DNA from: Ailanthus altissimus
Lineage: Eukaryota; Streptophyta; Magnoliopsida; Sapindales; Simaroubaceae
Direction: 5' to 3'
Assembly: GCA_946807835.1 (NCBI GenBank)
Contig: OX327694.1
Location: forward strand, 8,320,001-8,384,000
DNA: 64,000 nucleotides
A program made the translations under genes and the position numbers. A model generated the notes under the pieces. It saw nothing but the letters and a program-made list of their open reading frames with translations, made no database searches and was not told the origin of the DNA. This document shows positions 25,787-54,668 of this stretch, one piece after another; within the stretch, counting starts at the first letter, position 1, and each line of letters begins with the position of its first letter.

Positions 25787-26289
25787 GGGCTGGACAATTC
25801 TCGAGTTCGATTTAGTTAGATTCCAAACCCGAATTGATAAGTTCCTTGAAATTAAAATTGATCGGGTGATGCCAACTGAATCAGACTTAAATTGAACCTG
25901 TTTAGTTTGATTCGATTCTATTGTTCGATTTTTTGGCTTTAAGCTTTTTTTTTTCAAATTTAGTCTACGTTTTGGACTTTTGGGTTTGGGCTACTTTGAC
26001 TTATATATGAAATTTTAATTATTTTGAGCCCATAACTAATATTCTAAGGCCTAAATTAATATTATTTTTTGTTATAATTATTTTTTATGGCAATATTTTT
26101 AATATTACACCAAATAAAAATATAATTATAAATTGTAATTTTGTATTAAATTAATTAATTCAATTGTATTTTTAATTAATTTACATTCTGATAAAATTAT
26201 TAATTATCCAATTGAGTAAATTAAAGTTAAATTTTAAGTATGCAAAATTTAATTTATAATAGCTATTAATTTTTATTTATGTGATAAAT

Positions 26290-27590
26290 GATAAATCATC
26301 AATTGTACAAAATTTCAATTTCAATTTCAATTAACTTATATTATTTATGAGATAAATCAATTAATTGAATTAATTATGAGATAAATTAAATTTATTTTTG
26401 AAACTATGATGAGATAAATCAATTAATTGTTTAATTTGTATTATTAATGGGTCAATCTATTAATTCAATCGGTTAAATTGAAATTATAATTAAATTGTAC
26501 AAGATTTGACTTCAATTGCAATTAATTTGTATTATTCATGGGATCAATCTATTAATTCAATTGACTAAATTGAAATTAGAGTTAAATTGTACAAGGATTA
26601 TATTTCAATTGCAATTAATTTATATGAATTGAAATATATTAATTCAATTGACTAAATTGAAATTATATTTTAATTGTATAAGGATTCAATTTCAATTGTG
26701 ATTAATTTATATGATTCATGGGATACATCAATTAATTCAATTGACTAAATTATAATTATAATTTAATTGTATAAGGATTCAATTTCAATTGTGATTAATT
26801 TATATGATTCATGGGATACATCAATTAATTCAATTGACTAAATTATAATTATAATTAAATTATACAATGACTACATTTCAATTGCGATTAATTCGTATCA
26901 TTCATGGGATCAATCTATTAATTCAATTAACTAAATTAAAATTATAATTAAATTGTACAATGATTCGATTTCAATTGCGATTAATTTGTCTCATTCATGA
27001 GATTAATCTATTAATTTAAGTCAATTAAATTGACAAAATTATAATTATAATTCAATTCATTTATACAAGAATTCAATTTTAATTAAATAGTTGAGATTTG
27101 TTATCATTAATTATAATTTCAATTAAATAATTCAATTGAATACATTGAAATTATATTATAATTACAGAAGATTCAATTTAAATTAATCTATATTTTGACG
27201 AATTCAAATAATTCAATCGAATAAATTGAAATTATATTATAATTGTGAAGTTTCAATTTGAATTAATTTATATTCACATGATAAATCAAATAATTTGATA
27301 GAGTAAATTGAAATAATATTAGTATATTACAATTGAGGAAGATTCAATTTGAATTAATCTATATTCAAGTGCTAATTTAAATACTTTAATTGATTAAATT
27401 GAAATTATATTACAATTGTAGAAGATTCAATTTGAATTAATTTATATTCATGTGATAAATTGAATAAATAAAAAACATAATTTAACTGTACAAAGATTCA
27501 ATTTGAATTAATTAATATTCATGTGCTAAATTAAATAATTCAATTGAATAAAAATAAAATTATAATTCAATTGACAAATAATTGTTAATT
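26290..27590. repeat. AT-rich minisatellite, period about 93 bp
   Basis: The phrase ATTCATGGGAT(C/A)(A/C)AT starts at 26534, 26714, 26807, 26900 and 26993, so the last four copies are exactly 93 bp apart. Earlier relatives lie at 26343 and 26443. Each unit continues with TTAATTCAATTGACTAAATT and a TTTCAATTGCGATTAATTT-type phrase. After about 27060 the units become irregular but the same words recur to about 27560. A T-run closes the array at 27589. No coding potential. Confidence 0.8.
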
Positions 27591-28274: not shown

Positions 28275-31200
28275 ATGTCATTGTTGCGCAGTTTTAAAGA
28301 AAGCCTAAAACCCTGTTCGAATATCTCATCAAAGTCATCTACCTTAACACAATCTTCATTCTTGTCCAAAGAATCATCTGATGGTCGGTTAATTAACCCA
28401 AGAAAGCCCCCGAAATCCTCTCTTTCGCAGCAGCTCCAGCGTCTTGAAGAAGATTTTAACTTTTCTTCGCCAAAACAAAACCCAGAACCCAGAAACAAAG
28501 CCCCAGTTGAGAGACGGAGTTGTTTTGATGATGAAGAAGAGGAGAAACAGCAAGAAGAAAAGGAATTTGGAAGACCCCAGGTGGGTCAGTTTCAGTTTGA
28601 TCATACAGGCCCATATGAGCCATTGGTCTTGTCGGAAGGTCGACAAGTTCCAATTGTACAGGTTATTATTTTCTTAGATTTTTTTTTTTTTTTGTGCAAG
28701 TGCTTTTTCTTTTAGGTCTCAAGATAAAGCAATTTTCTTTAAGAAACATTGTGTTTTTTAATTTGTCTGATATTTTTTTCTGGAGTGAGAAACGTTTAGA
28801 TTTTTTTCTGATTAGGATGTAATTAGATGTCAGTTGTAAAGTTTTTGATTATGCTGGTGGGTGTGTTCTTGGAAACTGGGAAGTTAAATTGGCTTGTATG
28901 GATTAAAAATTTCTTTTTGTTTTTGTTTCTGGTTTTGGTTGCAGGTGCCTGCATCGATCAACTGTAGGTTGCTTGAACATCAAAGAGAGGGAGTGAAGTT
29001 CTTGTATAAATTGTACAAAAACAACCATGGAGGTATTCTTGGTGATGACATGTGAGTATATTTGTTATATTGATGTATCTCTCATTTTCTTTTGTTGTTT
29101 AACTGTGACCGTTCTTGTTCTTGTGTTCTCTTGTCATCTTGGTTTCATCTACCCTATTTGCGTTGCTGCTGTTTGTTTCAAGTTACCACCATACTACAAA
29201 TCTGCCCCACCCTATGGTTTATTAGAGAAAAATGTGAATTGGAAATATTATGAATATTATCTCTCTCAATTCTGTGGCCTGTAAAAAAAGTCATGACCTG
29301 TTTCAATATTGGCCCTTTCTACATGGTAGTTAATTTGATTTCTTCTTAATTATATTGCTGATTTAAGTTTTATTCTTCTTCTAACTATGTAACTGGTTGT
29401 TCTTTTCCCCCATAAGATGCGCAGTGCTGTGTCTGTATGAATGCTACATACGCCTATTTATACTCCACAAAGTCTGTGTGAAATAGATTTGTGTTTATAA
29501 TATACGTGAGACTTTTGGTTGAACTGAAGTAACAGATGCAATTGTAACTAAGGACTTACAGACAATGCTGATAATTTTCCAGGCTTCTTGTTATGATATT
29601 ATGCATGTATCAAGTATCCCACATTTCTCTGTCTCAGATGTTGTTATTAACTTTTTTTGCTGTGCTAATAGCATTCATTTTGGCCTTATAATATTGGATT
29701 AGGGGGCTCGGAAAAACAATTCAAACGATTGCATTCCTTGCTGCTGTGTTTGGAAAAGACGAGTCTACTGACACCACTGTTTTGAAAGAGAATAAACTGG
29801 GCAAGAAGGGTCACGTGCTGATTATTTCTCCCTCTTCTGTAATCCAGAACTGGGAGATTGAATTCTCTAGATGGTCTACCTTCAATGTCTCTGTGTACCA
29901 TGGTCCTAATCGTGATCTGATTTTTGGAAAACTAGATACAAATGGAGTTGAGGTACTTATTACTAGTTTTGACACTTATAGGATCCAAGGCAGCATTTTG
30001 TCAGAGGTCAATTGGGAGATCGTGATTGTTGATGAAGCACACAGGCTAAAGAATGAAAAGTCAAAACTCTATACAGCATGTTTAGAAATTAAAACTCAGA
30101 AACGTATTGGTCTGACAGGAACCGTCTTGCAAAACAAAATTATGGAACTGTTCAATCTCTTTGACTGGGTTGCACCTGGGTCCCTGGGAACACGGGAACA
30201 TTTCCGAGAGTTTTATGATGAACCCCTCAAGCATGGCCAAAGATCAAGTGCTCCTGAAAGATTTGTCCAGGTTGCTGATAAGCGAAAACAGCACCTAGTT
30301 GAAGTTCTTCGTAAATACATGTTAAGAAGGACAAAGGAGGAGACTATTGGACATCTTATGATGGGAAAGGAAGATAATGTGGTTTTCTGTGCAATGAGTG
30401 ATTTGCAAAAACGGGTTTATAGGAGAATGCTACAACTTCCAGACATTCAGTGCCTCGTTAACAAGGATCTTCCTTGTAGCTGTGGAAGCCCTCTTGCCCA
30501 AGTTGAATGTTGCCAAAGGACTGTACCAGATGGGATTATTTGGCCTTACCTCCACAGAGATAATCCTGATGGTTGTGATTCATGCCCTTTTTGCCTTGTC
30601 CTTCCTTGCCTTGTCAAACTTCAACAGGTTAATGAGCGTTTGAATTTTGTGGTTTTTCTAACTGTGATTGTTAACTTTATTAAATACATGCAACAGAATA
30701 CATGCTAGTTATAGACATAATTGAATTTCTTAGCTATGCAACCTTTACAGTTACTTTCTAGGATATCTTTCAAAGGCAAGAGGTAGGGGCAGAATTCTTT
30801 GGTCCAATGTGATTATACAGAAGTTTTATTGACACACGTTTAACTAAATTTTTCATCTTCTAAAGGATACTTTGCATTGGAAATTGAAATTCAATAAAAC
30901 AACGGAGGAGAACAGCAGAGGTTAATTTAATTTGTTGGTTAGTGTATTCCACTTTCAATCTATTTGTTGGAGTTTGACAAAGGAACTATAAACCTAAAAC
31001 CTATAAAATATCTTGTTATCATTTTAGCGCGGATATAACGTAATGGATGTTGTTCGGATCAGCATTCCTTCTTGGCCTGCAATAACTATAACTGTTGGAA
31101 GCTTGAATCAAAAAGAGTTTAATAAATTGAAAAGTATTTTTGAAACCTTTCTTATGGTTAATGGAACCTTTTTCTTCAGCTTCTGGAGCCAAATGCTTTC

Positions 31201-35363: not shown

Positions 35364-35546
35364 TGTTGAAATGTATAGGATATTTTGTATATATTTATGG
35401 TCAATATTATAAAATAAAAAATAAATTAATAATTTTTTAAATAGGACTAATTGACCTTTAAAATTGGACACATAACTTCACCTATATAATAATATATTTT
35501 TCTTATTATCAATGAACAAGTATTCTTCTTTCTCCATTTCTTCGCA
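35364..35546 (+). repeat. 5' LTR of copia B
   Basis: 183 bp, TGTTGAAATG to TTCGCA, exactly as long as the 3' LTR. Followed directly by the primer binding site. Confidence 0.92.
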
Positions 35547-35559
35547 TGGTATCAAAGCT
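35547..35559 (+). other. primer binding site of copia B (tRNA-Met)
   Basis: TGGTATCAAAGCT directly after the LTR, complementary to the 3' end of initiator tRNA-Met. Confidence 0.85.
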
Positions 35560-36215
35560 ATTGTGCTCTTTTTAATCCCTAATTTTTTTGGCGAAGTCAC
35601 CCATTTTTTTTCTGGCAACCGTGCTTTCTTCATTTTTTCAGTGGTCATGTTCTCAGCTTTGAGATCACCAATAACTCGTCGACAAAACCCTAAGAAGACA
35701 GGAGTTGAACCCCGCTGAACGCGCCACCACGCACCACCCACCAAAATTCGCCTTAATTTTTTTGCGCACGCGGACTCTCACTGCCGATGTCCCTGCCTTT
35801 AGACAACGCCGACGACCATTTATGCGGCAGCCCAGTAGTCATTGGCCACCGCACACGTTGCCCATATTTTCAGCAAGTTTTCGATCTCTTTCTCCGGCGA
35901 CTTTTCTCCGACGATCATTGTTCCCGTGAACTCAGACAAGGCTGATGACCAAGCCTATAGCAGCCGCGCACTCATCGACCGCTGAATGCACCCTCACGCG
36001 CTACATCTTTGCCGTTGTCACATGATCGCCAATCTCCTCCTCGGCGAGCGTGAGTCTTCACCGCCGGCACCAATAGTTTCAAACGACGTCAATGAACTAA
36101 ATACCTACCACTATGTCACTTCCTGTCGCCAAAAATTGCCAGTGTGTTACTAGAAAACTTCTCCTAGTTGTCAGTTATTTTCTCCTTCTTCCTTCTCTCC
36201 AATTTGTGAGCCAAT
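35560..36215 (+). other. copia B leader, relatively GC-rich
   Basis: The 650 bases between primer site and the gag start hold CG-containing words (35720-36070) and no recognisable protein. The open frames at 35512-35718 and 35705-35929 run across the LTR or leader and look fortuitous. Confidence 0.45.
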
Positions 36216-37522
36216 ATGACTACTGAGAGTTTTAAAACAGACAAGCAACCTCCATTTGTGACTCTCACAGGTGTCAACTATGACGAATACCTTAAATACT
36301 AAGCGGCTAAGCAGTCTACCTTTTCCATTGCACATAATGGTAATTCGGTCGCTTGCCTTACCCAATCTGCTTCTTTAGGACCCTGGGTCTTTGATTCCGG
36401 TGCCTCTGACCATATTTCTGGTAATATTCAATTAGTTTCTCATACTTCTACATCTAGGTTATTGTCATCTGTCACCTTAGCTAATGGGTCCACAATTACT
36501 GCTCAAGCAGTTGGTCGAGCACATCTTCTCTCTTCCTTACCTTTAGAATCTGTTCTTTATATACTGCATTATCCGTTTAATCTTATCTCTATCAGTAAAT
36601 TCACTCGCTCTTTAAATTGTGCAATCACTTTTGTTAATGACTCTATTCTTATACAGGATCTTAGTATAAGATGATGGCATAGGTCGTAAGTCATAGGGAC
36701 TTTATCATCTGAGTATTTCTCAATCATTTGTTGCATGCACTGTCACTGAATCACCAGTACTTCTTCATAATCGTTTGGGACATCCAAATCTGTTAAAGCT
36801 TCGAAAAATGGTTCCAGGTCTCTCTAGTCTATCGTCTTTCAATTGTGTGTCTTATCAACTTAGAAAATACTTTCGTAGATCTTTTTTAAAAAGTGTCAAT
36901 AATCGGGTTGCATCCCCTTTTGAATTAGTTCATTCAGATGTCTGGAGTCCGAGTCAATTCTCTTTTGTTTTATGTTTTGAAAACTTTGTTACGTTTATTG
37001 ATGATTATAGGCGTTACATTTGGTTATTTTTAATGAAAGATCGCTTTGAATTATTTTTCATCTTTGAATCCTTTTGTACTGAAATTAAGACACAATTCTT
37101 CACTACTATTCGTATATTATGTAGTGATAATGCATATGAATATTTTTCTACTCCTTTTATTAAATTTATGTCTTCCCATGGCATCTTACATCAGTCTTCT
37201 TATGTCTATACTTCACAATAAAATAGAGTTACAGAGCATAAGAACAAACATCTTATTAAAACTGCCCGCACTTTACTTATACATAATAATGTTCCTCTCC
37301 ATTTTTGGGCGGATGTTGTTCTTATTGCTTGTTTTTTTATAAATCGAATGCCCTCTTCTGTGTTACAACATCAAGTCCCTCATTTTGTTCTGTATCCTGA
37401 TCAACTATTGTTTCCTCTTCTGCCGCGTGTCTTTGGCTGCACATGTTTTGTACATGTCTAAATGTATTTTTCTTGGTTACTCAGATCTTCAGAAAGAATA
37501 TAGATGTTATTCTCCTGACACC
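36216..37522 (+). pseudogene. copia B gag stub, protease and integrase, broken
   Basis: A possible gag start at 36216 (MTTESFKTDKQPPFVTLTG) runs almost at once into the gag end region (YDEYLKY, stop, AAKQS), so the gag core is deleted. The protease keeps its catalytic motif in GPWVFDSGASDHISGN (36382-36430). GAG-pre-integrase shows HNRLGHPNLLKLRKM. Integrase (36775-37480) shows FELVHSDVWSP, FVTFIDDYRRYIWLFLM and ILCSDNAYEYF, matching the first two catalytic aspartate regions. There are stops at about 37219 and later. The frame is interrupted at 37522 by the gypsy element and continues at 47446 (RRHFISADVTFF). Confidence 0.82.
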
Positions 37523-39077
37523 TGATGAACACATGAAAATGCATGTTGTTAAAAGATTCAATCACCATTTAATGTCACTAATTTTAGTATTTTCTGTATT
37601 TTTAGCTTGAAATAAAGTGTTCTCCTTAAATTGTGATTAATGAATGTTATTTGGACAGGTTTAGGTAAACTGGACATAACTCTCAATGTAGAAATCGAAA
37701 CGAAGAAATTCTTGAACCTGGTGTAACATGACTCAATCTTACACAAATTTGAAGAATAGTGGAAAAGCCAAATCCAACATGTTATGGGCCAAAAATTGAG
37801 ATACAACAGAATCGGACTACAACTCTTACCCAGCTTGACCCAATTCACGTATTTGGACCGTATCTCACAAAATACGTACTCAATTGGTATAATTCTTGAG
37901 GCTGTGAATTGCTGACTTTACTATCAACAACTCGTATGTTTATGGTAAAGTCCAAATTAGCCGTTATCATGGACCAAATCGCATTGCAAGTGGGTAAAAT
38001 GGTTGTTGGCCGAATTCTGATGTATCTTTGGCATTTTGCTCATATCTCATTGGATACTCATCCAATTTGCATGAAATCAGTGCCTATGGAAAGAAGAGTC
38101 AAAATTATACAACTTTCATGTCGGCTGCAGAAGTTGAATTGATCATTTACATTATCAAAAATGTGCTGCAAGTGGATACACGAGTTATTGGCTTAAAATT
38201 ATTGAAGATTGATGTCATCCATGACATATGTCCATTCATTGCCTATATAAGGAGACCCTTAGAACGTTTTTAATAGATAAATTCTCTCTTCTTTTATTCT
38301 CATTAACATGTATTGTAATTTAGGCTAGATTTCCTAGCAAGGCTAAGAGATGAACTTTTATGTGTAGTAAATCTACTTCCATGCTTTGATTCGGTGTCAA
38401 GAGCTATAAATGTTGTAAGTTTGGTTTTGATTAAACTCTTATCTATTTTATTTTCTATAATCCAGAGGTTATAATTCTCATGTCTCATATATGTTCAGTC
38501 ATGCTTTTCTTATGTGATTCATGTTGATTTATAATTGTTACTGGTTATATTGTTTTATATGTTAATCTTTTACTGCAGTATTGTCAATTTGATATATTGT
38601 CGATCTTGGATAACATGTAAGGGTAATAAATGTTTGATATTCAAGTTAATCTTTTACTGCAATATTGTCAAAATGATATATTGTCGATCTTAGATAACTT
38701 GTATAAATAACATGATGTGTGTTAATGCTTGTAAAGAGTTTAACTAAATCAAATACATGTGTTATCAAATGTGCTATATATTACATACCTTCCGATTGAT
38801 TGTTTGGAATGTGAAACTTTCAGTTGAGTTATAAATATCGAATCAAAGTATAGAGTAGATTTATAAAGCATAATTGTGATTCTCAAAGCCTTGCTTAAAT
38901 CATCATAAGACATTTTCCTCAATTCATAGACAATTCTATCTTATCCGTTTAAATCAATTAACCCTTTGCTACTGCTTTAATATTTTACTTCACTAACCTA
39001 TTTTGCCAAGAGCTTCCTCGTGGGATCGACACCTCAATCTATACTGCGATAGCCGCGTTATATTTTGAGCGTAAACA
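37523..39077 (+). repeat. 5' LTR of the gypsy element
   Basis: 1555 bp, TGATGAACAC to GCGTAAACA, with the gypsy-type phrase GTGGGATCGACACC near its end (39022). Possible TATA: CCTATATAAGGAG at 38243-38255. Nearly identical to 45891-47445. Short open frames inside it occur identically in both LTRs and are not genes. Confidence 0.95.
38243..38255 (+). promoter_or_regulatory. probable LTR promoter TATA box
   Basis: CCTATATAAGGAG, 720 bases into the LTR, conserved in the 3' LTR at about 46611-46623. Position and sequence fit the retrotransposon promoter. Confidence 0.55.
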
Positions 39078-39083
39078 AAAATT

Positions 39084-39101
39084 TGGCACCGTTGCCGGGG
39101 A
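39084..39101 (+). other. primer binding site of the gypsy element (tRNA-Asp type)
   Basis: TGGCACCGTTGCCGGGGA starts 6 bases after the LTR. Athila/Tat-type elements carry a nearly identical site, usually assigned to tRNA-Asp. Confidence 0.75.
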
Positions 39102-39815: not shown

Positions 39816-40927
39816 ATGCATCGACCTAGAGACAAACGAGGAAGATTTGTGAGAGAACTAGAACTAGAACTAGAACCACTCCCACAATTTGTAAGTGAAG
39901 AGAATTCACCTTCTAGTTCATCTTGTAATTCTAACACAATGAGCCAACACGAAGAAAACCCCGTTAGAACTCTAAAAGATTACTTGCATCTTACTCACAC
40001 AGCCACACCATCATGCATTATATTTCCACCTAACATACCACATTCGGATTTTAAACCTGGAATGATACAACTTCTTCCCACTTTTCATGGTCTAGATAGT
40101 GAAAACCCTTATGTACATGTTAAGGAATTTGAAGAGGTAATTGCCACCTTCCATAGCCACCTGAAGCCATAGACACTGTTAGGCTTAAATTTTTCCCTTT
40201 TTCTTTGAAAGACAAAGCAAAGAGTTGGCTATACTCTTTGAGGCCGAGGTCTATAGGAACTTGGGCAGAAATGACCCAAGCATTTTTCAATAAATACTTC
40301 CCACAACACAAAACTAATGGCCTGAAAAGACAAATTTCTTCCTTCTCCCAAAAAGACAGTGAAACCTTATATCAAGCATGGGAAAGGTTTAAAGAGTTGT
40401 TAAATCTGTGCCCTCACCATGGGTATGAAAATTGGCGCTTGGTTAGTTATTTCTATGAGGGACTCACAATTAAAGAGCGCCAATTTGTTGAGATGATGTA
40501 TAATGGGGAGTTCCTTCACAAAGATCCTGAGGAAGCCATAGAATTCCTTAATGACTTAGCCAAAAAAGCCCATACATGGACTGGACCTAGCATTACTGAA
40601 AGCACAAATAGGTCACGACCCAATGGAGTTTTCCATCTTAGGGAAGAGGATAACCTCAAAGCCCAATTGGAGGTCTTAACTAGGGAGTTAGAGGCCTTGA
40701 AAACCAAAGATAAAAGGGTCACCCACACGGTTGCTAGATTTGAGTCCCACGATGTCTGTTTTGTCTGTGGAGGAGCGGAACACTTAGCTCAGGATTGCCC
40801 CACGTATAGTGAGATGAGAGGGATATATAAGGAACAATGTAATGCCCTAGGGATGTATAGGAAGCCTTATTCACCCTACTTTGAAACATATAATCCTACC
40901 TGGAGAAACCACCCAAATTTCAGTTGA
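39816..40927 (+). pseudogene. gypsy gag, Athila-type, one frameshift
   Basis: Capsid/nucleocapsid precursor. The first frame (39816-40172) starts MHRPRDKRGRFVREL with a short ELELELEP repeat, then enters the gag domain (FKPGMIQLLPTFHGLDSENP). A single frameshift near 40162 moves to the second frame, which from about 40173 reads DTVRLKFFPFSLKDKAKSWL, then RPRSIGTWAEMTQAFF, LNLCPHHGYENWRLVSYFYE and NGEFLHKDPEEAIEFL. A CCHC knuckle follows (CFVCGGAEHLAQDC, C-x2-C-x4-H-x4-C). The frame is stopped by TGA at 40925-40927 but continues in the same frame into protease. Strongly Athila-like by these phrases. Confidence 0.88.
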
Positions 40928-42305
40928 AAATCTGACCAACAAGCCAACAACCAATGGAAACAAGAACAACAAGCACCCAAGTCTTATGTTGCACCTCAAT
41001 ATAATGCACTACCAACTAGGAGTTCTTTAGAGGATACATTACAAGCATTTATGGAGGCACAAAGTAAGACTAATCAAAAATTTGAAACAATTCTTGCACA
41101 GGTGGTGGACGAAAACAAAGAAATCAAGAGTCAAATCACAAAATTGACCAGTGCCTTAACTGTACAAGAGCGAGGTAAGTTTCCATCTCAACCTCAATCC
41201 AATCCAAAAGGACAATTCATGGCACAAGCTTCTACTTCTAATGTTCAAAATCTCAAAGAAGTCAATGCCATTACTACTCGAAGTGGTAAGATTGTAAGTG
41301 AGCCTACTCCTGAAATTAACACATCTACGAGTAGTAAAGATGCCCCCCTTGAAAAAGAAGCCACAATGAAAAAAGAGCCCGAAAGTAAGTTTTCAATCCC
41401 AGTGCCTTTTCCTCAAGCTCTTCGATCGGTTGGAAAAAATTCAGAAATTCAAGGTGAGATTTTAGAACATTTGAAACAAGTCAAAATTAATCTTCCCTTG
41501 TTACATTTGATTAAGCAAGTTCCAACTTATGCCAAAGTCATCAAGGATTTATGCACTATCAAAAGAAAACACCATGTGAAGAAAACTGCATTTTTGGCAG
41601 AACAAGTAAGTGCAGTGATTGAACAAAAGACACCACCCAAGTATAAAGACCCAGGATGTCCCATAATCTCCTGCCAAATTGGGACACATGAGTTTGGTCA
41701 AGCTTTATTAGACTTAGGAGCAAGTGTAAATTTAATGCCTTATTCTATTTACTTGCAGTTAGGACTTGGTGAGATTAAACCAACATCTGTAGTCCTACAA
41801 TTAGCTGACCGATCAATCAAGAAACCACGGGGAATTGTATAAGATGTTTTGTTGCAAATTGACAAATTTTACTATCCTGTTGATTTTCTTGTTTTAGATA
41901 CTCATTCTGTTGTTAACATGGAGTCAAAAATCCCTCTTATTTTGGGGAGACCTTTTCTAGCCACTGTTAACGCTCTTATTAATTGCAGAAATGGTCTAAT
42001 GAAATTATCTTTTGGGAATATGACTCTTGAGGTGAACATTTTTCATATTGATAAGCAATCACGAGAAGAAGACGAATGCTATCATTCATATATGATAGAC
42101 ACACTTGGAGCGGAGGAAGCTTATAAAAATCATAGCTCTAATTCTTTAGAAAATCTCTTTGATTTTGATATTGAAGAATTGTATTATCCTGATGAAACAA
42201 CTGATATGTTTAGTATTTTTGACTCACAGGATAAAGGGATTCAATTTTGGAAACCAGGCATTGAAAAGTTGCCATATGAGAGGGACAAACCAAAATCATC
42301 AAAAC
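40928..42305 (+). pseudogene. gypsy protease and linker, in frame with gag
   Basis: Same reading frame as gag after the TGA at 40925. It contains a spacer, then VNAITTRSGK (a usual landmark before Athila proteases), then the aspartic protease with LLDLGASVNLMP (41705-41740; catalytic Asp codon at 41711) and IPLILGRPFLATVNALI (41933-41983). A TAA at 41840-41842 interrupts it where related elements have a sense codon. After the protease comes the acidic linker that normally leads into reverse transcriptase (YYPDETTDMFSIF, WKPGIEKLPYERDKPKSSK), but reverse transcriptase does not follow. Confidence 0.85.
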
Positions 42306-42790
42306 TCGAGACACTACGTGTCATCATTGGTGACCAAGGAACACATTTCAGTTCTAGAAAACCTCATAAAGCTTATTGGGTTGTCAAAGCCCTTAACTTT
42401 GATTTGAATGTTGCAAGTCTCCAGAGAAAGTTACAATTGTCAGAAATAGAAGAGCTACAAAATGACGCATATGACAACTCCAGAATTTACAAAGCTAAAA
42501 TTAAAGTAGCTCATGATAAACAGATCTCAAGGAAACACTTTGAGCCAAATCAACGGGTCTATCTTTATGATTCTCGATTGCATTTACACCCTGAAAAGTT
42601 GAGATCTCGATGGACTGGTCCATTTATGGTAAGACATGTTTTTCCTAATGGTGCTGTTGAAATAGAAGACCCCACTGATGGACGGACTTTCAAAGTGAAT
42701 GGACAGCGGCTAAAAAGCTACGTGGAAAAGGTAAACGACTCTATGTACCTAGGCGAGATCCCTCTTGTGGATCCTGTCTATCGTGATTGA
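42306..42790 (+). pseudogene. gypsy integrase C-terminal piece joined directly to the protease linker
   Basis: In frame with the preceding linker. RVIIGDQGTHFSSRKPH retains one catalytic-aspartate-type phrase of the integrase core, then a second deletion jumps to KAYWVVKALNFDLNVASL and the C-terminal domain: HFEPNQRVYLYDSRLHLHPE, LRSRWTGPFMVRHVFPNGAV and EIEDPTDGRTFKVNGQRLK. The whole reverse transcriptase, RNase H and most of the integrase core (over 3 kb in relatives) are missing. Frame closes at 42790. The open joins suggest the deletion version was still translated at some time. Confidence 0.85.
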
Positions 42791-43038: not shown

Positions 43039-43509
43039 ATGGATCGCATTCTTGCCAACCTTAAAAAACGTTTTCCTTCATTTCCTCAAAATGCTCTACT
43101 TAAGATTTACAAAGCACGGTGTGAAAGACTAAGGCTATTGATGTTGGGTAATATCCCTGTGGACCTTCGTTGGTTAATTGAAGCCAAGGTTCGGTTGTCT
43201 GGTGAGTTTGAAAATGATTTTGTTTCTCATATGCCTGGTCTTGGAAGAAGCTCTTATGCCAAAAGGCGACGAGCAAAAAGGTTACAAGTCTGTAATAAAT
43301 GTGCTCGATGGAATTGTAATCGGAGTTGTCGTTCTTTAGGATTCGTATCTAGAAATCGAGAAGACAAAATTCAGTTCATTAAGGATGGACTGAGTAAGGA
43401 GTCTTTGGATGATATCCTATTAACTCTTGAGACGCATCCCTGTGGGCTCGTGCAACGTGAACTTCTCGATTTATGGAACAAATTCAAAAATGAACATCAA
43501 ACGGTATAA
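43039..43509 (+). CDS. basic cysteine-rich protein, carlavirus-type nucleic-acid-binding protein-like
   Basis: Intact 156-residue frame starting MDRILANLKKRFPSFP. The N-terminal half is mostly helical-looking. A basic patch (YAKRRRAKR, residues 73-81) is followed directly by four cysteines, C85-x2-C88-x4-C93-x3-C97, then by RSLGFVSRNREDKIQFI and a leucine-rich C-terminus (LDDILLTLETHPCGLVQRELL). A GxSSYAKRRRAK-type basic segment immediately before a compact four-cysteine knuckle is the hallmark of the small nucleic-acid-binding proteins of carlaviruses (Carla_C4 family), which bind nucleic acid, enter the nucleus and suppress silencing. I infer a similar binding role. The cysteine spacing is tighter than I remember for the viral proteins, so the link needs a profile search. 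It lies in the env position of an Athila-like element, upstream of a LOG-type gene on the same strand. No stop or frameshift, unlike its neighbours. Confidence 0.55.
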   Translation: MDRILANLKKRFPSFPQNALLKIYKARCERLRLLMLGNIPVDLRWLIEAKVRLSGEFENDFVSHMPGLGRSSYAKRRRAKRLQVCNKCARWNCNRSCRSLGFVSRNREDKIQFIKDGLSKESLDDILLTLETHPCGLVQRELLDLWNKFKNEHQTV

Positions 43510-43903
43510 TCTTGGGAATCTGACTCTAAAAGACCCTGTTTGCCAATTTATAAGAAAATTGGATGGGAAGCCTATCCCCGACCCATAGAGGGCGTTTAAG
43601 CCGTTACTGGACGTAAAACCAGAGGAAGATGTGAGCCACAATCACAACTACTTGTAAATACATGTGTTTTAATTTCAAACTTTATTTTATGAATAGTAGG
43701 GCTACTCATGTAGATGTCTTAAATTCAAATCTTTTTGTTCAATAATGCATGCGGGTCATTATGTTTAAATATTTGTGTTTTATTTTTAACTCTCTTTTGA
43801 CAAACTGTCGGGTTACCATAATCATTGTTATCATTTGGCACTCTATAAATACAGCACCTCAGTTTCTTCATTTTCATATATTGAGATAAAGGTGAGAGTA
43901 GAT
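43510..43903 (+). promoter_or_regulatory. intergenic region with a possible promoter for the LOG-like gene
   Basis: 394 bases without coding potential. TATAAATA at 43844-43851 (within CTCTATAAATACAGC) lies 53 bases before the ATG at 43904 and is followed by a C/T-rich stretch typical of plant transcription starts. If used, the LOG-type gene would have its own transcript independent of the LTR. Confidence 0.45.
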
Positions 43904-44551
43904 ATGGAGGAAACCCAAGTTCGACAATTTTGAAATATATGTGTATTTTGTGGATCTAGTCCTGAGGAGAGTAAAGTGTTCGTAGAAGCAGCAAACAATC
44001 TAGGAAAAACATTAGCTGCAAGAAAAATTCATTTGATTTATGGAGGAGGTAGCCTTGGGCTAATGGGGTGTGTGTCAACAGCTGCACATTTAGGAGGAAG
44101 TTAAGTTTTAGGTATTATTCCTACAGCTTTGGCCGTGGAAAACCTGACCGGGAAAACAATAGGGGAAGAATTACAAGTCTCATCCATGCATGAACGTATA
44201 GCCAAAATGCTTTGCAATGCAGACGCTTTTATTGCTTTACCAGGTGGTTTTGGTACCTTGGAAGAAATTTTTCAAATTGTCTCTTGGGCCCAACTGAATA
44301 TCCACCGAAAACCCATAGGTTTGTTAAATGTTAATAACTATTTTGATTGCTTACTTTGTTTTCTTGATCAAGTTGTGGAACATAATTTTATTTCACATTC
44401 GGCGCGACAGATCCTGGTTTCTGCTACTGAGGCGGATGAATTGATTAACAAATTACAGGCAGTTACCTACGAACCTGACCCAGCAATAACTCGGATCGAT
44501 TGGTCAGTGGGTCTTAAAAAGCGAAAATTGGATCTGACACTCCGTTTGTAA
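43904..44551 (+). pseudogene. LOG-type cytokinin riboside 5'-monophosphate phosphoribohydrolase, intronless, two stops
   Basis: LOG enzymes release active cytokinin bases from their riboside monophosphates in the cytosol or nucleus. The frame spans 215 codons plus stop, the usual plant LOG length. It shows ICVFCGSSPEESKVFVEAA, IHLIYGGGSLGLMG, SMHERIAKM, the signature PGGFGTLEE (PGGxGTxxE; codons within 44239-44265), and SWAQLNIHRKPIGLLNVNNY. Two in-frame stops break it: TGA at 43931-43933 (codon 10) and TAA at 44102-44104 (codon 67). The part after the second stop (44129-44551) is open and keeps the signature. Plant LOG genes normally have several introns; none is present here, which points to capture from a spliced mRNA. 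It lies on the same strand as the element and the cysteine-rich gene. MHER-I-AK differs from the usual MHERKAEM. Dead or dependent on readthrough as it stands. Confidence 0.9.
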
Positions 44552-44685
44552 ATTTTTCTTTTTATTTATTTATTTATCAGTACCATCATTTTAGTTTATA
44601 TTGCTTAAGTGTCTCTCAGGTTTGTTTCTTTCAAATAACTGGCGTTTCAGGTAATGTCTCCTATACTTTATCTCTTTCTATTTAA

Positions 44686-44722: not shown

Positions 44723-44783
44723 ATAGTAGACATACGTTGCATTTTGCAAAAAAAAAAAAAAATTGTGGTCCGACATTTGATTA

Positions 44784-45878: not shown

Positions 45879-45890
45879 GGTTGGGGGCTG
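45879..45890 (+). other. polypurine tract of the gypsy element
   Basis: GGTTGGGGGCTG directly before the 3' LTR; G-rich but interrupted by pyrimidines. Confidence 0.55.
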
Positions 45891-47445
45891 TGATGAACAC
45901 ATGAAAATGCATGTTGTTAAAAGATTCAATCACCATTTCATGTCACTAATTTTAGTATTTTCTGTATTTTTAGCTTGAAATAAAGTGTTCTCCTTAAATT
46001 GTGATTAATGAATGTTATTTGGACAGGTTTAGGTAAACTAGACATAACTCTCAATGTAGAAATCGAAATGAAGAAATTCTTGAACCTAGTGTAACATGAC
46101 TCAATCTTACACAAATTTGAAGAATAGTGGAAAAGCCAAACCCAACATGTTATGGGCTAAAAATTGAGATACAACAGAATCGGACTACAACTCTTACCCA
46201 GCTTGACCCAATTCACGTATTTGGACCGTATCTCACAAAATACGTACTCAATTGGTATAATTCTTGAGGCTGTGAATTGCTGACTTTACTATCAACAACT
46301 CGTATGTTTATGGTAAAGTCCAAATCAGCCGTTATCATGGACCAAATCGCATTGCAAGTGGGTAAAATGGTTGTTGGCCGAATTCTGATGTATCTTTGGA
46401 ATTTTGCTCATATCTCATTGGATACTCATCCAATTTGCATGAAATCAGTGCCTATGGAAAGAAGAGTCAAAATTATACAACTTTCATGTCGGCTGTAGAA
46501 GTTGAATTGATCATTTACATTATCAAAAATGTGCTGCAAGTGGATACACGAGTTATTGGCTTAAAATTATTGAAGATTGATGTCATCCATGACATATGTC
46601 CATTCATTGCCTATATAAGGAGACCCTTAGAACGTTTTTAATAGATAAATTCTCTCTTCTTTTATTCTCATTAACATGTATTGTAATTTAGGCTAGATTT
46701 CCTAGCAAGGCTAAGAGATGAACTTTTATGTGTAGTAAATCTACTTCCATGCTTTGATTCGGTGTCAAGAGCTATAAATGTTGTAAGTTTGGTTTTGATT
46801 AAACTCTTATCTATTTTATTTTCTATAATCCAGAGGTTATAATTCTCATGTCTCATATATGTTCAGTCATGCTTTTCTTATGTGATTCATGTTGATTTAT
46901 AATTGTTACTGGTTATATTGTTTTATATGTTAATCTTTTACTGCAGTATTGTCAATTTGATATATTGTCGATCTTGGATAACATGTAAGGGCAATAAATG
47001 TTTGATATTCAAGTTAATCTTTTATTGCAATATTGTCAAAATGATATATTGTCGATCTTAGATAACTTGTATAAATAACATGATGTGTGTTAATGCTTGC
47101 AAAGAGTTTAACTAAATCAAATACATGTGTTATCAAATGTGCTATATATTACATACCTTCCGATTGATTGTTTGGAATGTGAAACTTTCAGTTGAGTTAT
47201 AAATATCGAATCAAAGTATAGAGTAGATTTATAAAGCATAATTGTGATTCTCAAAGCCTTGCTTAAATCATCATAAGACATTTTCCTCAATTCATAGACA
47301 ATTCTATCTTATCCGTTTAAATCAATTAACCCTTTGCTACTGCTTTAATATTTTACTTCACTAACCTATTTTGCCAAGAGCTTCCTCGTGGGATCGACAC
47401 CTCAATCTATACTGCGATAGCCGCGTTATATTTTGAGCGTAAACA
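45891..47445 (+). repeat. 3' LTR of the gypsy element
   Basis: 1555 bp, same length as the 5' LTR and over 99% identical by eye. Ends GCGTAAACA, followed by the ACACC duplication. Confidence 0.95.
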
Positions 47446-49177
47446 ACACCCGACGTCATTTTATTTCTGCTGATGTCACATTTTTTTAGTCTTCCCCTTT
47501 CTTTTCTTCCTTTGCTTCCGAAAATATGTCAATCACAGAAGCTCTTCCAATTTCTTATATTATTCCTCTTCTTGAGTTAAACACTGAACCTATTCCTGTC
47601 CCACAGCATGATCCTCCCACCGATGATTCTCCCTCTCCGGCTCGTGATAGTCTTGTTTCTTTTGATTCTACAGGTGCTGACAATGATACCGCTCTTGAAG
47701 CTTTTGAGGTTCCCGTTGACTTACTTCCTGCTTCAAACTCCTCTCCTACTAAGGTTCTGCCACTTGTTGACCAATTTTCAATTGTTGTTCGTAAAGATAT
47801 ATGTTCCACTCGCAACCCTCATCTATGTACAACTTTCTTAGTTATCATCAATTATCTTCCCCATATTATACCTTTATGTCTATTTTATCGTCTGTTTCTA
47901 CTCCTAAAATACTTCATGAGACTCTTTTACACCCTAGTTGGCATCAAGTAATGGTTGAGAAAACGATTATTTTGCATACTAATGGTACATGAGAATTGGT
48001 TCGATTACCGCCAGGACACTCCACGGTTGGTTGTCGATGGGTGTACATTGTCAAGATTGGACCTAATGGTCAGGTAGACAGATTGAAAACTCTGTTGGTT
48101 GAAAAATGGTACATTCAGACTTATGGGTAGGACTATTATGAGACTTTCTCTCCTATGGCTAAAATATCATCTGTTTGGTTGTTCTTGTCTATAGCTGTTA
48201 TATCATCAATGGCCTTTGCACCAACTCGATATCAAAAATACTTTTCTTCATGGTGAGCTTCAAAAAGAAATATATTTGGAGCAACCACCTGGATTTGTTG
48301 CTTAGGAGGAGTCTGGTTTGGTGTGTAAACTTTAACGCTCCTTGTATGGTTTAAAACAATCTCCTCGTGCCTGGTTTGACCATTTTAGTACTGTTATCCA
48401 AGAGTTTTGCATGATTCGAAGTGAGTCAGATTATTCTATTTTCTATCGACATACACCACAGGGCCAATGTATATATCTGGTAGTCTATGTTGATGATATT
48501 GTCATTATAGGAGATGATCTGGACGATATTAAACAATTAAAGAATCACTTGTTCTGACATTTTCAGACTAAAGATTTGGGATTGCTCAGATATTTTTTTT
48601 TTATATAGAGGTTGCTCAATCTAAGTCTGGAATTGTTATCTCTTAAAGAAAATATGCGCTAAATATTCTAGAGGAAACAGAGATGTCAGACTGCAAGCCT
48701 ATAGATTCTGCTATGGATCCTAATATTAAACTTCTACTTAGATCGAGGGAGTCTCTTGCAGATTTTGAGAGATATCGGAGACTAGTTAGTAAGCTTAATT
48801 ATCTCACCATCACACGACCTAATATTTCCTATTCAATCAGTGTTGTCAGTCAGTTTCTATAGTCTCTATGTGATAGTTATTGTGATGCAGTTATCCGAAT
48901 CTTACGGTATATCAAGGGTGGACCAAAAAAAGGTTTGCTATATGAGAATAAGGGTCATACACACGTAGTTGGATATTCAGATACTGATTGGGCAAGTTTT
49001 CCAATAGATAGACATTCTACTACTGTGTATTATATTCTTATTGGAGGAAACCTTGTATCATGGAAAAGTAAGAGGTAAGAAGTTGTTACGAGGTCAACCG
49101 CAAAAGCAGAATATCATGTCATGGCCTTAGCAACGTGTGAGCATATATGGTTGAAACAATTGATTCAAGAACTGAAA

Positions 49178-49198
49178 TATATATATATATATATATAT
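49178..49198. repeat. (AT)n microsatellite inside copia B RNase H
   Basis: About ten AT units, expanding a short stretch of the RNase H frame into a tyrosine-isoleucine run. Confidence 0.85.
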
Positions 49199-49450
49199 CA
49201 CAAATGAAGCTATTTTGTAATAATCAAGCTACACTTCACATTTCATCCAACCTGATATTTCATAAAAGGACTAAGCATATAGAAATTGATTGTCACTTTA
49301 TTCGAGAGAATATTTTGTCTGGCTGTATTTTCACAAGTCATGTTTGCTCAAACAACGAGTTAGCAGACATTCTCACTAAATCTCTCGGAAGTCCTCAAAT
49401 TGATTTTATTTATAACAAGCTTGGCGCATATGATTTATACACTCCAGCTT

Positions 49451-49459
49451 GAGGGGGAG
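49451..49459 (+). other. polypurine tract of copia B
   Basis: GAGGGGGAG directly before the 3' LTR. Confidence 0.85.
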
Positions 49460-49642
49460 TGTTGAAATGTATATGATATTTTGTATATATTTATAGTCAA
49501 TATCATAAAATAGAAAATAGATTGATAATCTTCCAAATATGACTAATTGACCTTCTAAATATGACACATAACTTCACCTGTATAATGATGTATTTTTCTT
49601 ATTATCAATGAACAAGTATTTTTCTTTCTCTATTTTTTCACA
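49460..49642 (+). repeat. 3' LTR of copia B
   Basis: 183 bp, TGTTGAAATG to TTCACA. About 21 differences from the 5' LTR, mostly C/T and G/A. Confidence 0.92.
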
Positions 49643-50073: not shown

Positions 50074-52401
50074 TGTTGGATACGGTGTGTAATGTGTATA
50101 GCTACGTATAATTTCAAAAATTAAATACGCAGCGGAAGTATTCATACATATTATACACTATATAACAAACTCAAGCATATAATCATATGTATGATCATTC
50201 AAGCACATATATATATATATCTCATATATATATATTTTCATGCATAATATAAAATGAATTGTAAATAAATAACCTACCCGGTTTTGAAGATAGCTTTACA
50301 ATTCTTCAAGATCTTCAATCTTCAATTTGTTGAGCTCACCTTGAAGTGTTCCCTTGCACAATTCTAGTTCACAACTAAATCCGGTGGGATTGTGAAGCTA
50401 GAATGGCAGTCTTGAATTTTCAGCAAATGATTGTTTTAACACTTAAAACAATTGTCATTATGAATTATTACTACCAAGAGATGAGAAGAATTAAGTGTTT
50501 TCTTTTGTTCTTTACAACTCTTTGTTATAAACCTTAGTAAGCCTTTGCATATTCTCTCAACTCTTTGAGAAATACACTTAGAAAATGCTCTCAATTCTCT
50601 CTACTCTCTCTTTGGCCAAATCTTACCTTCATTCTACACAAATTGAACTTTTTCAATTCTTGGTTTAGTGCAAAGAATGATTACTACTCTTAGTGCTTCA
50701 CCACCACTTAGCCATGTTTGCCATTACAAACATTAATCAATCATATTTTTCATTCAATAAATTGATTCATACGTATAAATCAATTTCTAGAGAGTAAATG
50801 GCAATTAAACAATGCTAAGTAGTTTCACCACTTCCTTAATGCATCATTTAAGTAATTCTAAGTGGCCAACATTGTTAATTATTAATAACAAGTGCTTACT
50901 CCATTACTTAATGGTGTTTGCCACTTATTTCAATTAATAATAATAATGTTATTAATATATAAAATATTAATAATTCAAAACTATTTTGAATATTTACATT
51001 TACCATATATGTATTTACCAAGCAAGGTAAATAGGTAAATACATGGTAAATTATTTATAGAGCAAGATTGTGCCACTTGTCAATTTCTTATTGGTTAACA
51101 ACTCTTGTAAACCAATAATGTATTTTACATTCAATTATTTACAAGTGAATAATAAAAGGAACCTTGAAACATTTTTCACTTTGCTGAAAAATTGTTGGAT
51201 TAATTGTTCAATCCAATTTGCTGCCCCGGTGCACAACGATTACACTTCATATTGTGAGACTCTCTAGGTCCATACCCGATTTTTCATATGAAACTATTTC
51301 ACACACATGTTACGAATATTACAAAATGGTGCATTAGACCATACAAGTTGAGGTTAAAACATATTCGTATAATCTTTCCATCATAAATATCCTAGAAAAG
51401 TGAAGATATAGATCAACACCGTCAAGTCTCCATGTGCTCAACCATAAACTTATCTCTAAATTTGTATTTCAATAAATAATATCCGTAAACCCTTTTATGA
51501 TATTATTTTCCTGAGGATAAAATTAATTCTCGGATATGTCTGCTTATGGCCATAAGACTTTCTGAAATACAATTTTGGAGTTTCAGGATATTTTACTCAC
51601 CTAATTGAGTTGATGGATCCTATATCTGTACACACCGGATTCCATGAGCATCGGACCATACCCAGCGACACCCAACGGTCAGACCATGAAAGGTATCTAA
51701 CATGTGTGAAACCAAAGTATGGTGGATCACTCACAAGTCCACTATGGCACTCATGTCTAAGGACCACGAATACTATTCAACTCGAAAGATCCTCTATTGA
51801 CGGCTTTATGGGATGTCTATTGGAGATCTTTGTGAGTTTGTTCAATATTCAGTCCTTACTGAATACTTGTATCTCTATACGAGTTTTCATTAAACTCATG
51901 GTCTGTTAAGACTAACCATCTGGACTATCTAGATATAGACATACACTGATCTATATATATATTAAGGTCTTCACTAACAGACCCGCATTAGTAAAGATAG
52001 ATCAGGAACATTAATTTTAAGAACATATTTGCATAACAACATTTCCTAGCACCATTTACAACTCATTGCAACTATGTTATTACTAATATATTCTTAGGTC
52101 TTTGTCCTATTTCAGACAAGACTGTAACTCTTTAGATTTTGCTAACTCTTATAACCTGATAACTCTTATTAGTGCTAACTTTTAGCATTTATATCTTTTA
52201 GCGTTACTAACTCTTATTACTAATCTAAACTCCTTTAGATCAGATCTGAACTCTTTCAGATCATGCAATGTCTAAAACGTTACAAGCATCTTACCATATT
52301 TGTATATAAAATAATTAGTGATATATATAAATCATAATTGTATAAACATAAAATAAATATTTATACACAAAAGGGATGGCACGTAAGCACAAATCCCAAC
52401 A
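50074..52401 (-). repeat. solo LTR of the TGTT...AACA family, perfect TSD
   Basis: 2328 bp from TGTTGGATAC to ATCCCAACA, with inverted ends TGTTGG/CCAACA. Flanked by ATATA on both sides (50069-50073 and 52402-52406). Same family as 12960-16353 and 53672-54668, related to 2011-4178 and 7604-9712, and in the same (minus) orientation. No internal region. The open frames at 51070-51267 and 51610-51909 lie inside and are not genes. Confidence 0.85.
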
Positions 52402-53671
52402 ATATATAACCCAAAACTTTATCTAATTAGGCGGTGTCAAATTCTAACACTTGACTCTCACTTCATCCACCTTGATCTTATTATTTATTATAACCTCAAA
52501 AATCTTGTATGTCAAGTATTACATTTTTGCAACATGAAATTGCATCTAAACAAGATACATGAAAGGGATAATTTTATCTTTGAAGAAAAGCTGGAATAGC
52601 TTCAGACCTAATAGACATGACAAGCTTATATTTTGTGAAATAAAATATCAAGTCAGATGACCAACTCAATAGTATTCTATAGTTGGTCAAGAACATTTGC
52701 ATTAAATCATGATAACCTAAGAAGTATCAAGAACATTTGCATGTGTTTGTATACATTAAAAGAATGTCAAAAATATTATCTTATACGAATAGGAATCTGA
52801 AAATATTACTCCCACGCTCTATAATTACTACAAAAGAGAAATAGTAATCTGGAAAATATTACTCTCATGCTCCATAATCACAACAAAAGAGAACTAATTA
52901 ATGAACAAACACCACATAATATTAATAATATCTTCTAAATCATTCTTTGGAAATGTGAAAAGTTAAAACAAATCAGCCACAAGACTCAATAAAATTGAGC
53001 TTCAATCCTAACTAGAGTCGCAAAACATAAATATATATATATATTGACATAGAGAAGTAAAACCATTAATACTTGGAAGTTTTCAATGTTCTCCATCTAT
53101 CCATCTATTGTCACAAGGAAACAATTTTTTATTTCCTCCCGTTGGGCTGTGGATAAGGCACAAAAGATCTTTAATATTGTGGCATAGAGGCAAAAATACT
53201 AATCTAATCCCTCCCTTAAACAAACCACATCCTAAAAAGAACATAAACTTATAACTATCTGCTTATACTGTTTTGGAGCATTAATGCACAGCAATTTCTC
53301 ACAAAATAAGAACAAAAAAGAGTAACAAAATAATGACATTATGATTATACATAAATGATTCACAAGAATTAGATATCTCTTTTCACTTAAAATAATAGCA
53401 ATATTAGGTTAAAGAAAACAATGGCTTTTCTTGTTTGAACATTTTCCTCTTGTATGGAGGTTGTTCTTGTCCATTCTTTTTTCCCCTCTTCCACTTTTTC
53501 TTTTTGTTCCAAATAATTACAAATAAGCTCATTAAAAAGTAACACGAGAGTGATCTGTTGATAACTAACCTTTTGGTGGAGCTGCATTGTCAATCCTATA
53601 CATTGCACTTCAAATTTTTTAGAAAATTAGTACGACTCTTTCTTAGTTTCTTCTCAACAAAAATATGTATA
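52402..53671. other. intergenic; begins with a partial repeat of 49643-49770
   Basis: 52402-52515 resembles 49643-49770. The rest is AT-rich. The minus-strand open frame at 53387-53608 shows nothing recognisable. Confidence 0.45.
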
Positions 53672-54668
53672 ATCATGAGCATCAAACCATACCCAGCGAT
53701 ACCTAATAATCAGACTATGAAATATTTCTGACATGTGTAGAACCAAAGTATAGTGGATCACTCACAAGCCCACCATGACACTCAAGTTAAAGGACCATTA
53801 ATATTACTTAACTTGAAAGACCCTCCATTGATAGCTTTATGAGATGTCTATTAGAGGTCTTCATAAGTTTGTTTAGTATTCAGTCCTTACTGAATACTTG
53901 TATCTTTATACAAGCTTTCACTAAACTCACGGTTTGCTAAGACTAACCATATGAACTATCCAGACATGGACATATACCGATCTATATATTTACTAAAGTA
54001 TTCATTAATAGACCAGCATCAGTGAAGATAGATCAAGAACATAATATTTGAGAACATCTTTACATAATGACATTTTCTAGCACTATTTATAACTCTTTGC
54101 AACTATGTCATTACTAATATATTCTCAGATTTTTGTCCTATTTTGGATAAGGCTTTAACTCTTTAGATATTACTGACTCTTATAACCTAATAACTCTTAT
54201 CAGTGCTAACTCTTAGCATTTATAACTCTCAGTGTTGCTAATTTTTAGCACTAATCTAAACTCTTTTAGATCAAGAACATAATATTTGAGAACATCTTTA
54301 CATAATGACATTTTCTAGCACTATTTATAACTCTTTGCAACTACGTCATTACTAATATATTCTCAGGTTTTTGTCCCATTTTAGATAAGGCTTTAATTCT
54401 TTAGATATTACTGACTCTTATAACCTAATAACTCTTATCAGTGCTAACTCTTAACATTTATAACTCTTAGTGTTGCTAATTTTTAGCACTAATCTAAACT
54501 CTTTTAGACCAGATATGAACTCTTTCAGATCATATAATATCTGAAATGTTACAAGCATCTTACCATATATAAAATATAATTAGTGAATTAATGAAATGAT
54601 AATACTAGTATAAATATTAATCAAATATTTATACATAAAAGGATGGCACGTAAGCGCAAATCCTAACA
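53672..54668 (-). repeat. truncated LTR of the TGTT...AACA family with internal duplication
   Basis: Collinear with the right-hand part of the solo LTR at 50074-52401, starting at ATGAGCATC and ending AAATCCTAACA. A segment of about 238 bp is present twice in tandem (54031-54268 and 54269-54506), beginning GATCAAGAACATAATATTTG each time. Confidence 0.75.

Follow-up and report, generated by a model that had tools for sequence, protein, structure and literature searches.

A predicted LOG-type cytokinin-activation gene and a NABP-like partner gene in a young, high-copy Ty3/gypsy retrotransposon family of Ailanthus altissimus

Plant transposons are commonly regarded as a passive burden that silencing keeps in check. 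The maize element Bs1 is a long terminal repeat (LTR) element with host gene sequence, a low-copy capture, and Steinbauerova et al. reportedly described in 2011 two Athila-like elements with similarity to LOGL4. In the accessible part of another article, one sentence, citing that work, reports YgdH/LOG domains within gypsy elements from two Citrus species (C. sinensis and C. clementina) and from Populus trichocarpa, and orchid Ty3/gypsy elements are described that carry an AlkB-type m6A RNA demethylase, shown to be active on RNA (PMC9289625). Here we analyse a 64,000-nucleotide stretch of the Ailanthus altissimus genome (assembly GCA_946807835.1, contig OX327694.1, positions 8,320,001 to 8,384,000; referred to as the window), in which a frame related to the cytokinin-activating LOG enzymes of plants lies inside an LTR retrotransposon. 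On the evidence below we favour, with some reserve, the reading that this is a broken copy of a young, high-copy Ty3/gypsy family which carries a NABP-like gene together with a selected LOG gene, the product of the latter being predicted to release cytokinin and to be led by its C-terminal tail to nuclear corepressors. A selected hormone enzyme suggests that some transposons act on host development.

The element and its parts are laid out in the window as follows:

37518..37522 (no strand): target-site duplication ACACC, 5' side, read from the sequence
37523..39077 (+): 5' LTR, 1,555 bp, 12 differences from the 3' LTR
39084..39101 (+): primer-binding-site-like stretch just 3' of the 5' LTR, by sequence
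40205..40927 (+): gag frame with Retrotrans_gag (PF03732) and a zinc knuckle, by Pfam
40928..42364 (+): stop-interrupted protease-region frames, seen as open frames; protease by eye, without a Pfam match
42365..42790 (+): C-terminal integrase remnant, from the junction relative to other copies; no Pfam match of its own
43039..43509 (+): NABP-like gene, Viral_NABP (PF05515) and Carla_C4 (PF01623), 3' end shortened, by Pfam and relatives
43676..44644 (+): LOG-bearing segment, replaced by 97 bp in the related element L001, by alignment to L001
43841..43853 (+): TATA-box-like CTCTATAAATACA, 63 bp 5' of the LOG ATG, common to a second family
43904..44551 (+): LOG frame broken by in-frame stops (codons 10 and 67), by translation, profiles and relatives
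44516..44548 (+): coding sequence of the C-terminal tail (a basic patch, then LDLTLRL), by translation and relatives
45879..45890 (+): purine-rich, polypurine-tract-like stretch abutting the 3' LTR, by sequence; same in other copies
45891..47445 (+): 3' LTR, 1,555 bp
47446..47450 (no strand): target-site duplication ACACC, 3' side, read from the sequence

The LTRs have TG...CA ends. Together with these LTRs, the target duplication and gag, the order of RNase H before integrase in L018, a family copy with full pol in which both domains were found, identifies the element as Ty3/gypsy; the family presumably belongs to the Athila lineage, as general features of the element suggest; the window copy has no reverse transcriptase. 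The pol of this copy is internally deleted, with reverse transcriptase, RNase H and the integrase core gone and the junction at about 42364/42365. Few LTR differences speak for a young insertion. A preceding sequence-only reading of the window had already placed a LOG frame inside a young gypsy element, between a pol remnant and the 3' LTR. Both statements hold, given the profile matches described next, the 12 differences between the 1,555-bp LTRs, the ACACC duplication, and a position of LOG between the end of the integrase frame at 42790 and the 3' LTR starting at 45891.

The window LOG is an intronless frame of 215 codons, broken by its two stops as that reading had supposed. Its stop-free part (44129-44551) matched Pfam PF03641 with an E-value of 7.5e-34 (117.2 bits; cut-off 27) and NCBIfam TIGR00730 with 108.8 bits, for which the database relative P0001 reached 172.2 bits (cut-off 96.35). 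P0001 stayed below the 300-bit cut-off of the NCBIfam equivalog NF058542 (117.1 bits), a threshold that does not define plant LOGs, because an Arabidopsis-type LOG (P0241) also stays below it with 132.4 bits. A chance match as an explanation of the frame was ruled out by these profile matches and by the database relatives. The PGGxGTxxE-type motif named in the sequence-only reading is indeed present, along with the Arg and Glu residues that we take to be catalytic. All seven catalytic residues are kept in 46 of 54 relatives, and the catalytic columns have an entropy of 0.14, compared to 1.02 for the rest, a value as low being drawn only twice in 20,000 random draws. For a structure model of P0001 (predicted local distance difference test, pLDDT, 86), the best matches were 2a33 (Arabidopsis LOG3, E 2.9e-24) and 1ydh. 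As the catalytic residues and the predicted fold are conserved, the element LOG is predicted to be an active enzyme that would free active cytokinin in the host cell. In viral contigs, a scan with the LOG alignment returned 25 loci at 23-39% identity, which we took for distant LOG-like proteins, and a scan with the LOG protein returned no relative.

To place the window copy in its genome (939 Mb), we scored the best matches of several searches, so that the fractions given here are skewed to the high side and the counts are minimum numbers. At the DNA level 40 of 2,119 candidates were scored, including the window itself, and the other 39 were full-length at about 98%. The LOG protein search, scored for the best 150 of 6,317 candidates, gave full-length or nearly full-length copies throughout, 134 of them stop-free and 34 with an identical protein, while 145 of the 150 scored NABP matches (of 4,865 candidates) had no stop. 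A whole-genome search for further LOG-bearing elements, as the sequence-only reading had proposed, thus yielded at least 150 LOG copies, which rules out a single curiosity. We then read 20 of the 39 further DNA matches in detail, with 3 kb per side. In all 20 the order of integrase end, NABP, LOG and LTR is kept, with LOG stop-free in 19 and NABP at full length in 18, and the 20 copies have 20 different 3' flanks; that of L023 leads into the interior of an adjacent element, and L035 is embedded in another NABP-like sequence. The common internal place of LOG in 20 of 20 copies rules out a later nested insertion at this locus, which had been raised as a danger to the sequence-only reading together with the lack of any other LOG-bearing copy.

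Sequence of pol 5' of the integrase end is present in 12 of the 20 copies, open to the edge of the piece in 10 of these; seven of the 20 have the window-type pol deletion and one (L030) a smaller one. Because 12 copies have upstream pol and the others a pol deletion, LOG-bearing forms with and without full pol have both multiplied. In one further family element, on C11, the LTRs differ at 13 sites and the target duplication is a separate one, TATAC. An ordinary LOG3-type query (150 of 5,714 candidates scored) uncovered a second, diverged LOG family in the same genome. All 12 copies fetched from it (L073-L084) have NABP upstream of LOG, at full length in seven, and LOG is stop-free in seven, so that the gene pair stands in this arrangement in all 32 examined copies of both families. 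The host LOG exons of this plant were masked by element copies in the LOG best-match searches. The second family had been overlooked by the sequence-only reading, as had the NABP gene, the C-terminal tail and the shared TATA box.

The two families allowed us to follow selection on LOG, whose proteins are 66.5-67.4% identical between them. Three pairs of stop-free copies gave a ratio of nonsynonymous to synonymous substitution rates (dN/dS) of 0.120-0.126 at a dS of 1.84-1.87, which is near saturation and makes the ratio a rough one. By this codon comparison, a check that had been suggested beforehand, LOG is under purifying selection between the two element families. NABP gave 0.182-0.188 at a dS of 0.88-0.90 between the families (two pairs), and relative to the NABP of L001, an element fragment without LOG, 0.18-0.20 for the 18 full-length copies and 0.205 for the second family. 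It seemed conceivable that LOG travels as a mere passenger, having been trapped once from the host and being copied along without service to the element. The window copy does decay about neutrally, with 6 amino-acid changes, 2 stops and 2 silent changes, which is near the ratio of sites expected under neutrality, and LOG is dispensable for some relatives, because L001 keeps an open integrase and an intact NABP without it. However, a passenger would hardly account for a LOG dN/dS of 0.12-0.13 at a dS of about 1.85, for the conservation of catalytic sites, or for a tail conserved at codon level, and we regard this explanation as already disfavoured and quite improbable.

In our trees, element-type LOGs group in a single clade, separate from LOG1/3-type proteins and from Arabidopsis LOG8; therefore one old capture suffices. 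In one of the database members, P0002, a gag-pol-like stretch could be recognised by eye. L001 aligns with the window up to about 43675 and resumes at 44645, so that it lacks the roughly 970-bp LOG segment and has 97 bp in its place; LOG has either not yet been gained in L001 or has been lost from it. L001:1-3330 is filed under a metagenome-assembled genome of Candidatus Nomurabacteria, and the contig is probably plant contamination, because it encodes a gypsy-type integrase and a NABP-like gene. Downstream of LOG, a conserved, splice-site-like stretch resembling TTTCAGGTAAT occurs in the window (44645-44664), in the second family and in L001 (from 2533), and CATTGAGGACAATG followed by a G-run is found there in all three alike.

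The sequence-only reading had attributed the missing introns to capture from mRNA. The absence of introns and the discrete segment of about 0.97 kb that L001 lacks would both suit a processed mRNA copy, yet missing introns are no proof of such an origin, because later RNA passages would remove introns whatever the source. Moreover, the 3' end of the segment bears no poly(A) (L001, too, has the A-run near 44750), and the TATA box ahead of the ATG is common to both families, so that non-transcribed sequence either came along or was gained later. Capture from mRNA is thus not borne out and appears doubtful to us, whereas the LOG gene in a young gypsy element and the broken state of this copy stand. 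The TATA box in question, CTCTATAAATACA, lies 63 and 76 bp 5' of the LOG ATG in the two families, within surroundings that have largely diverged; a 13-base match was reached in only 2 of 3,000 shuffle pairs, and all 13 bases are unchanged in 18 of 20 copies of the window family and in 10 of 12 of the second. We put the weight on this conservation because CTATAAATA by itself is over-represented, and infer that transcription of LOG would start from a TATA promoter of its own in addition to the LTR.

The C-terminal tail distinguishes element-type LOGs from the ordinary LOGs surveyed. An LxLxL end is present in 95 of 120 listed LOG relatives and in none of 120 LOG1/3-type proteins, a basic patch near the end in 108 of 120 and 1 of 120, respectively; after thinning, 27 of 32 distinct proteins have LxLxL, compared to 0.2% of shuffled ends. 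Entropy is 2.57 in the variable linker that immediately precedes the tail and 0.99 in the tail itself. The tail is disordered in the structure model of P0001. Between the families, the last six codons (DLTLRL) differ by four silent and no amino-acid changes, while the four codons before them have two amino-acid changes. A tree built without the tail requires a minimum of four tail gains or losses. The two deepest rows of the clade have the basic patch without the LxLxL end, which fits a stepwise gain of the tail. In annotation, element-type LOGs may pass for ordinary LOG genes; P0058, a protein of Populus trichocarpa called LOGL10, has the tail and may be an example. LxLxL is the consensus of EAR motifs, and we liken the tail to those of proteins such as SUPERMAN. 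From its residues, the basic patch with LDLxLxL is predicted to act as a nuclear signal joined to an EAR motif that would recruit TOPLESS-type corepressors. One may ask whether the LOG domain is then mainly a scaffold, with tail and nuclear corepressor recruitment mattering and cytokinin release incidental or lost. The tail is new to the clade and strongly conserved, and 8 of the 54 proteins have an incomplete catalytic set; still, the 46 others keep all seven residues, which occupy the most conserved columns, making a mainly scaffolding role unlikely in our view.

The partner gene is, in the window, a frame of 156 amino acids between integrase remnant and LOG; relatives, like 18 of the 20 copies read, have 182 amino acids. 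It matched Viral_NABP with E 1.2e-7 (32.4 bits; cut-off 23) and Carla_C4 with E 3e-6 (27.5 bits; cut-off 20.9); among 21 aligned relatives, at E up to 1e-3, PF05515 was found in 19 and PF01623 in 16. The database relatives were the best 120 of 481, and those named among the matches listed come from Populus, Xanthoceras, Acer, Rhamnella and Orobanche. The nearest relatives of LOG (P0001, 96%) and of NABP (P0121, 97%) are both on 8,723-bp contigs, and a second pair, P0074 and P0132, are both on 4,511-bp contigs, suggesting that the members of each pair share one contig. Searches for NABP in PHROGs and NCBIfam gave no match, a search in the PDB none up to E 1, and scans of viral contigs with the NABP protein and the NABP alignment no relative.

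The likeness to carlavirus proteins may reflect convergence of a basic, cysteine-rich stretch rather than common descent. The spacing of the cysteines is unlike one published for a carlavirus, the fold search gave no significant match for a model of pLDDT 68, and a reversed control protein drew one chance match to an unrelated Pfam family (E 9.6e-4, under that family's cut-off). On the other hand, the reversed control matched neither NABP family, the profile matches lie near 1e-8 and over the curated cut-off in 19 of 21 relatives (3.3e-8 for L001 against the viral profile), and the two best-ranked structures of the non-significant fold search are viral silencing suppressors. We therefore consider convergence fairly unlikely, and speak of a NABP-like gene, not of a family member, because the cysteine spacing differs and the fold search was not significant. 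In the accessible portions of two articles, viral cysteine-rich proteins (CRPs) of the NABP type are described as silencing suppressors, and for chrysanthemum virus B the protein is said to be a transcription factor that brings about hyperplasia (PMC12172455, PMC3689765). By analogy with these carlavirus relatives, the element NABP would bind nucleic acid and perhaps blunt silencing.

Taken together, the selected LOG, its new tail and the plant-virus-like partner gene suggest that the element probably manipulates its host cells. In the mechanism we propose, LOG would be transcribed from its internal TATA promoter as well as from the LTR, its protein would release active cytokinin in the host cell, and the tail would draw that protein to the nucleus and to TOPLESS-type corepressors, while NABP would bind nucleic acid and perhaps dampen silencing. 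Expressing cells might then remain in a meristematic or dividing state, which would let new insertions reach gametes. Taken further, and held only tentatively, the two genes might form a host-manipulation cassette resembling the means of gall pathogens, with NABP as a silencing suppressor and LOG, under its own promoter and with its corepressor tail, keeping a stem-cell state, so that silencing would be disarmed and insertions would enter the germ line. If this were true, LTR elements would be agents of developmental hormone control, and enzyme, tail, promoter and NABP are defined parts with which it can be tested.

A number of points weigh against the reading that we favour. The scored matches and protein lists are best matches and as such favour intact frames, and "element-type" is a clade name, most database members not having been seen inside an element. 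Apart from the roughness of a LOG dN/dS taken near saturation, the selection test covers two families of one genome, and the dS of LOG between them is about twice that of NABP, a mismatch that may stem from a LOG cassette passed between element lineages or from saturation alone. Eight of 54 proteins are catalytically incomplete, 25 of 120 relatives, including the two deepest tree rows, have no LxLxL end, and the ordinary LOGs compared for the tail were of the LOG1/3 type only. CTATAAATA alone occurs 9 times in the window against 2.3 expected. The NABP cysteines in P0121 follow C-X2-C-X4-C-X3-C, unlike a published carlavirus zinc finger, and the NABP fold search returned 22 matches up to E 10, none of them up to 0.001. 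For comparison, the accessible text on potato virus H, a carlavirus, gives its zinc finger as C-X2-C-X9-C-X4-C (PMC3689765).

As to the surroundings, the window element is seemingly nested in an older copia-type element (35364-37517 and 47451-49642), of which a gag_pre-integrase domain at 36697-37218 is presumed to be part; repeats of 183 bp, 88.5% alike, flank the gypsy element at 35364-35546 and 49460-49642. Elsewhere, a diverged, tandem-like array lies at 26129-27577 (self-matches of 67-73% identity at shifts of about 90-960 bp), and at 29692-30705 an SNF2-related helicase domain (E 5.4e-54) is encoded in an open frame of 338 codons. Related repeats of 0.6-2.2 kb and 66-97% identity are dispersed at 2044-4178, 7613-9712, 13862-14870 and 51219-54668, and copia-type frames lie near two of them, at 1630-2157 and 9924-10574.

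How does this family relate to known systems? Like maize Bs1, it represents a host gene in a plant LTR element, but Bs1 is low-copy, whereas here two diverged high-copy families carry a gene under selection. With the gypsy elements of Citrus and Populus it has in common a LOG-family domain inside plant Ty3/gypsy LTR retrotransposons; to what the accessible part of that report contains, we add copy number, two families, selection, tail, TATA box, NABP and a LOG-less relative (PMC9289625). The orchid AlkB elements are, in the same portion of that text, likewise a gypsy lineage with an extra host-type catalytic gene kept over several replication rounds; their enzyme has been shown to be active and has an RNA substrate, while ours is a predicted hormone enzyme accompanied by a virus-type gene (PMC9289625). 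As described in the accessible portions of the respective articles, the CRP/NABPs of carlaviruses and allexiviruses resemble the element protein in the Viral_NABP and Carla_C4 profiles, in a basic patch followed by a cysteine motif, and in being encoded by a 3'-proximal gene; the element protein differs in its 182 amino acids, in its C-X2-C-X4-C-X3-C motif and in its place within a retrotransposon (PMC12172455, PMC3689765). This raises the question whether small nucleic-acid-binding proteins have been exchanged between flexuous plant RNA viruses and retrotransposons. For gypsy LOGs, a NABP partner, tail, promoter or selection was not found in open-licence full text, a body that leaves most subscription papers outside. 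Judged against the accessible text, then, LOG in gypsy elements was already known (PMC9289625), and what this locus contributes is the NABP partner, the tail, the promoter and the selection.
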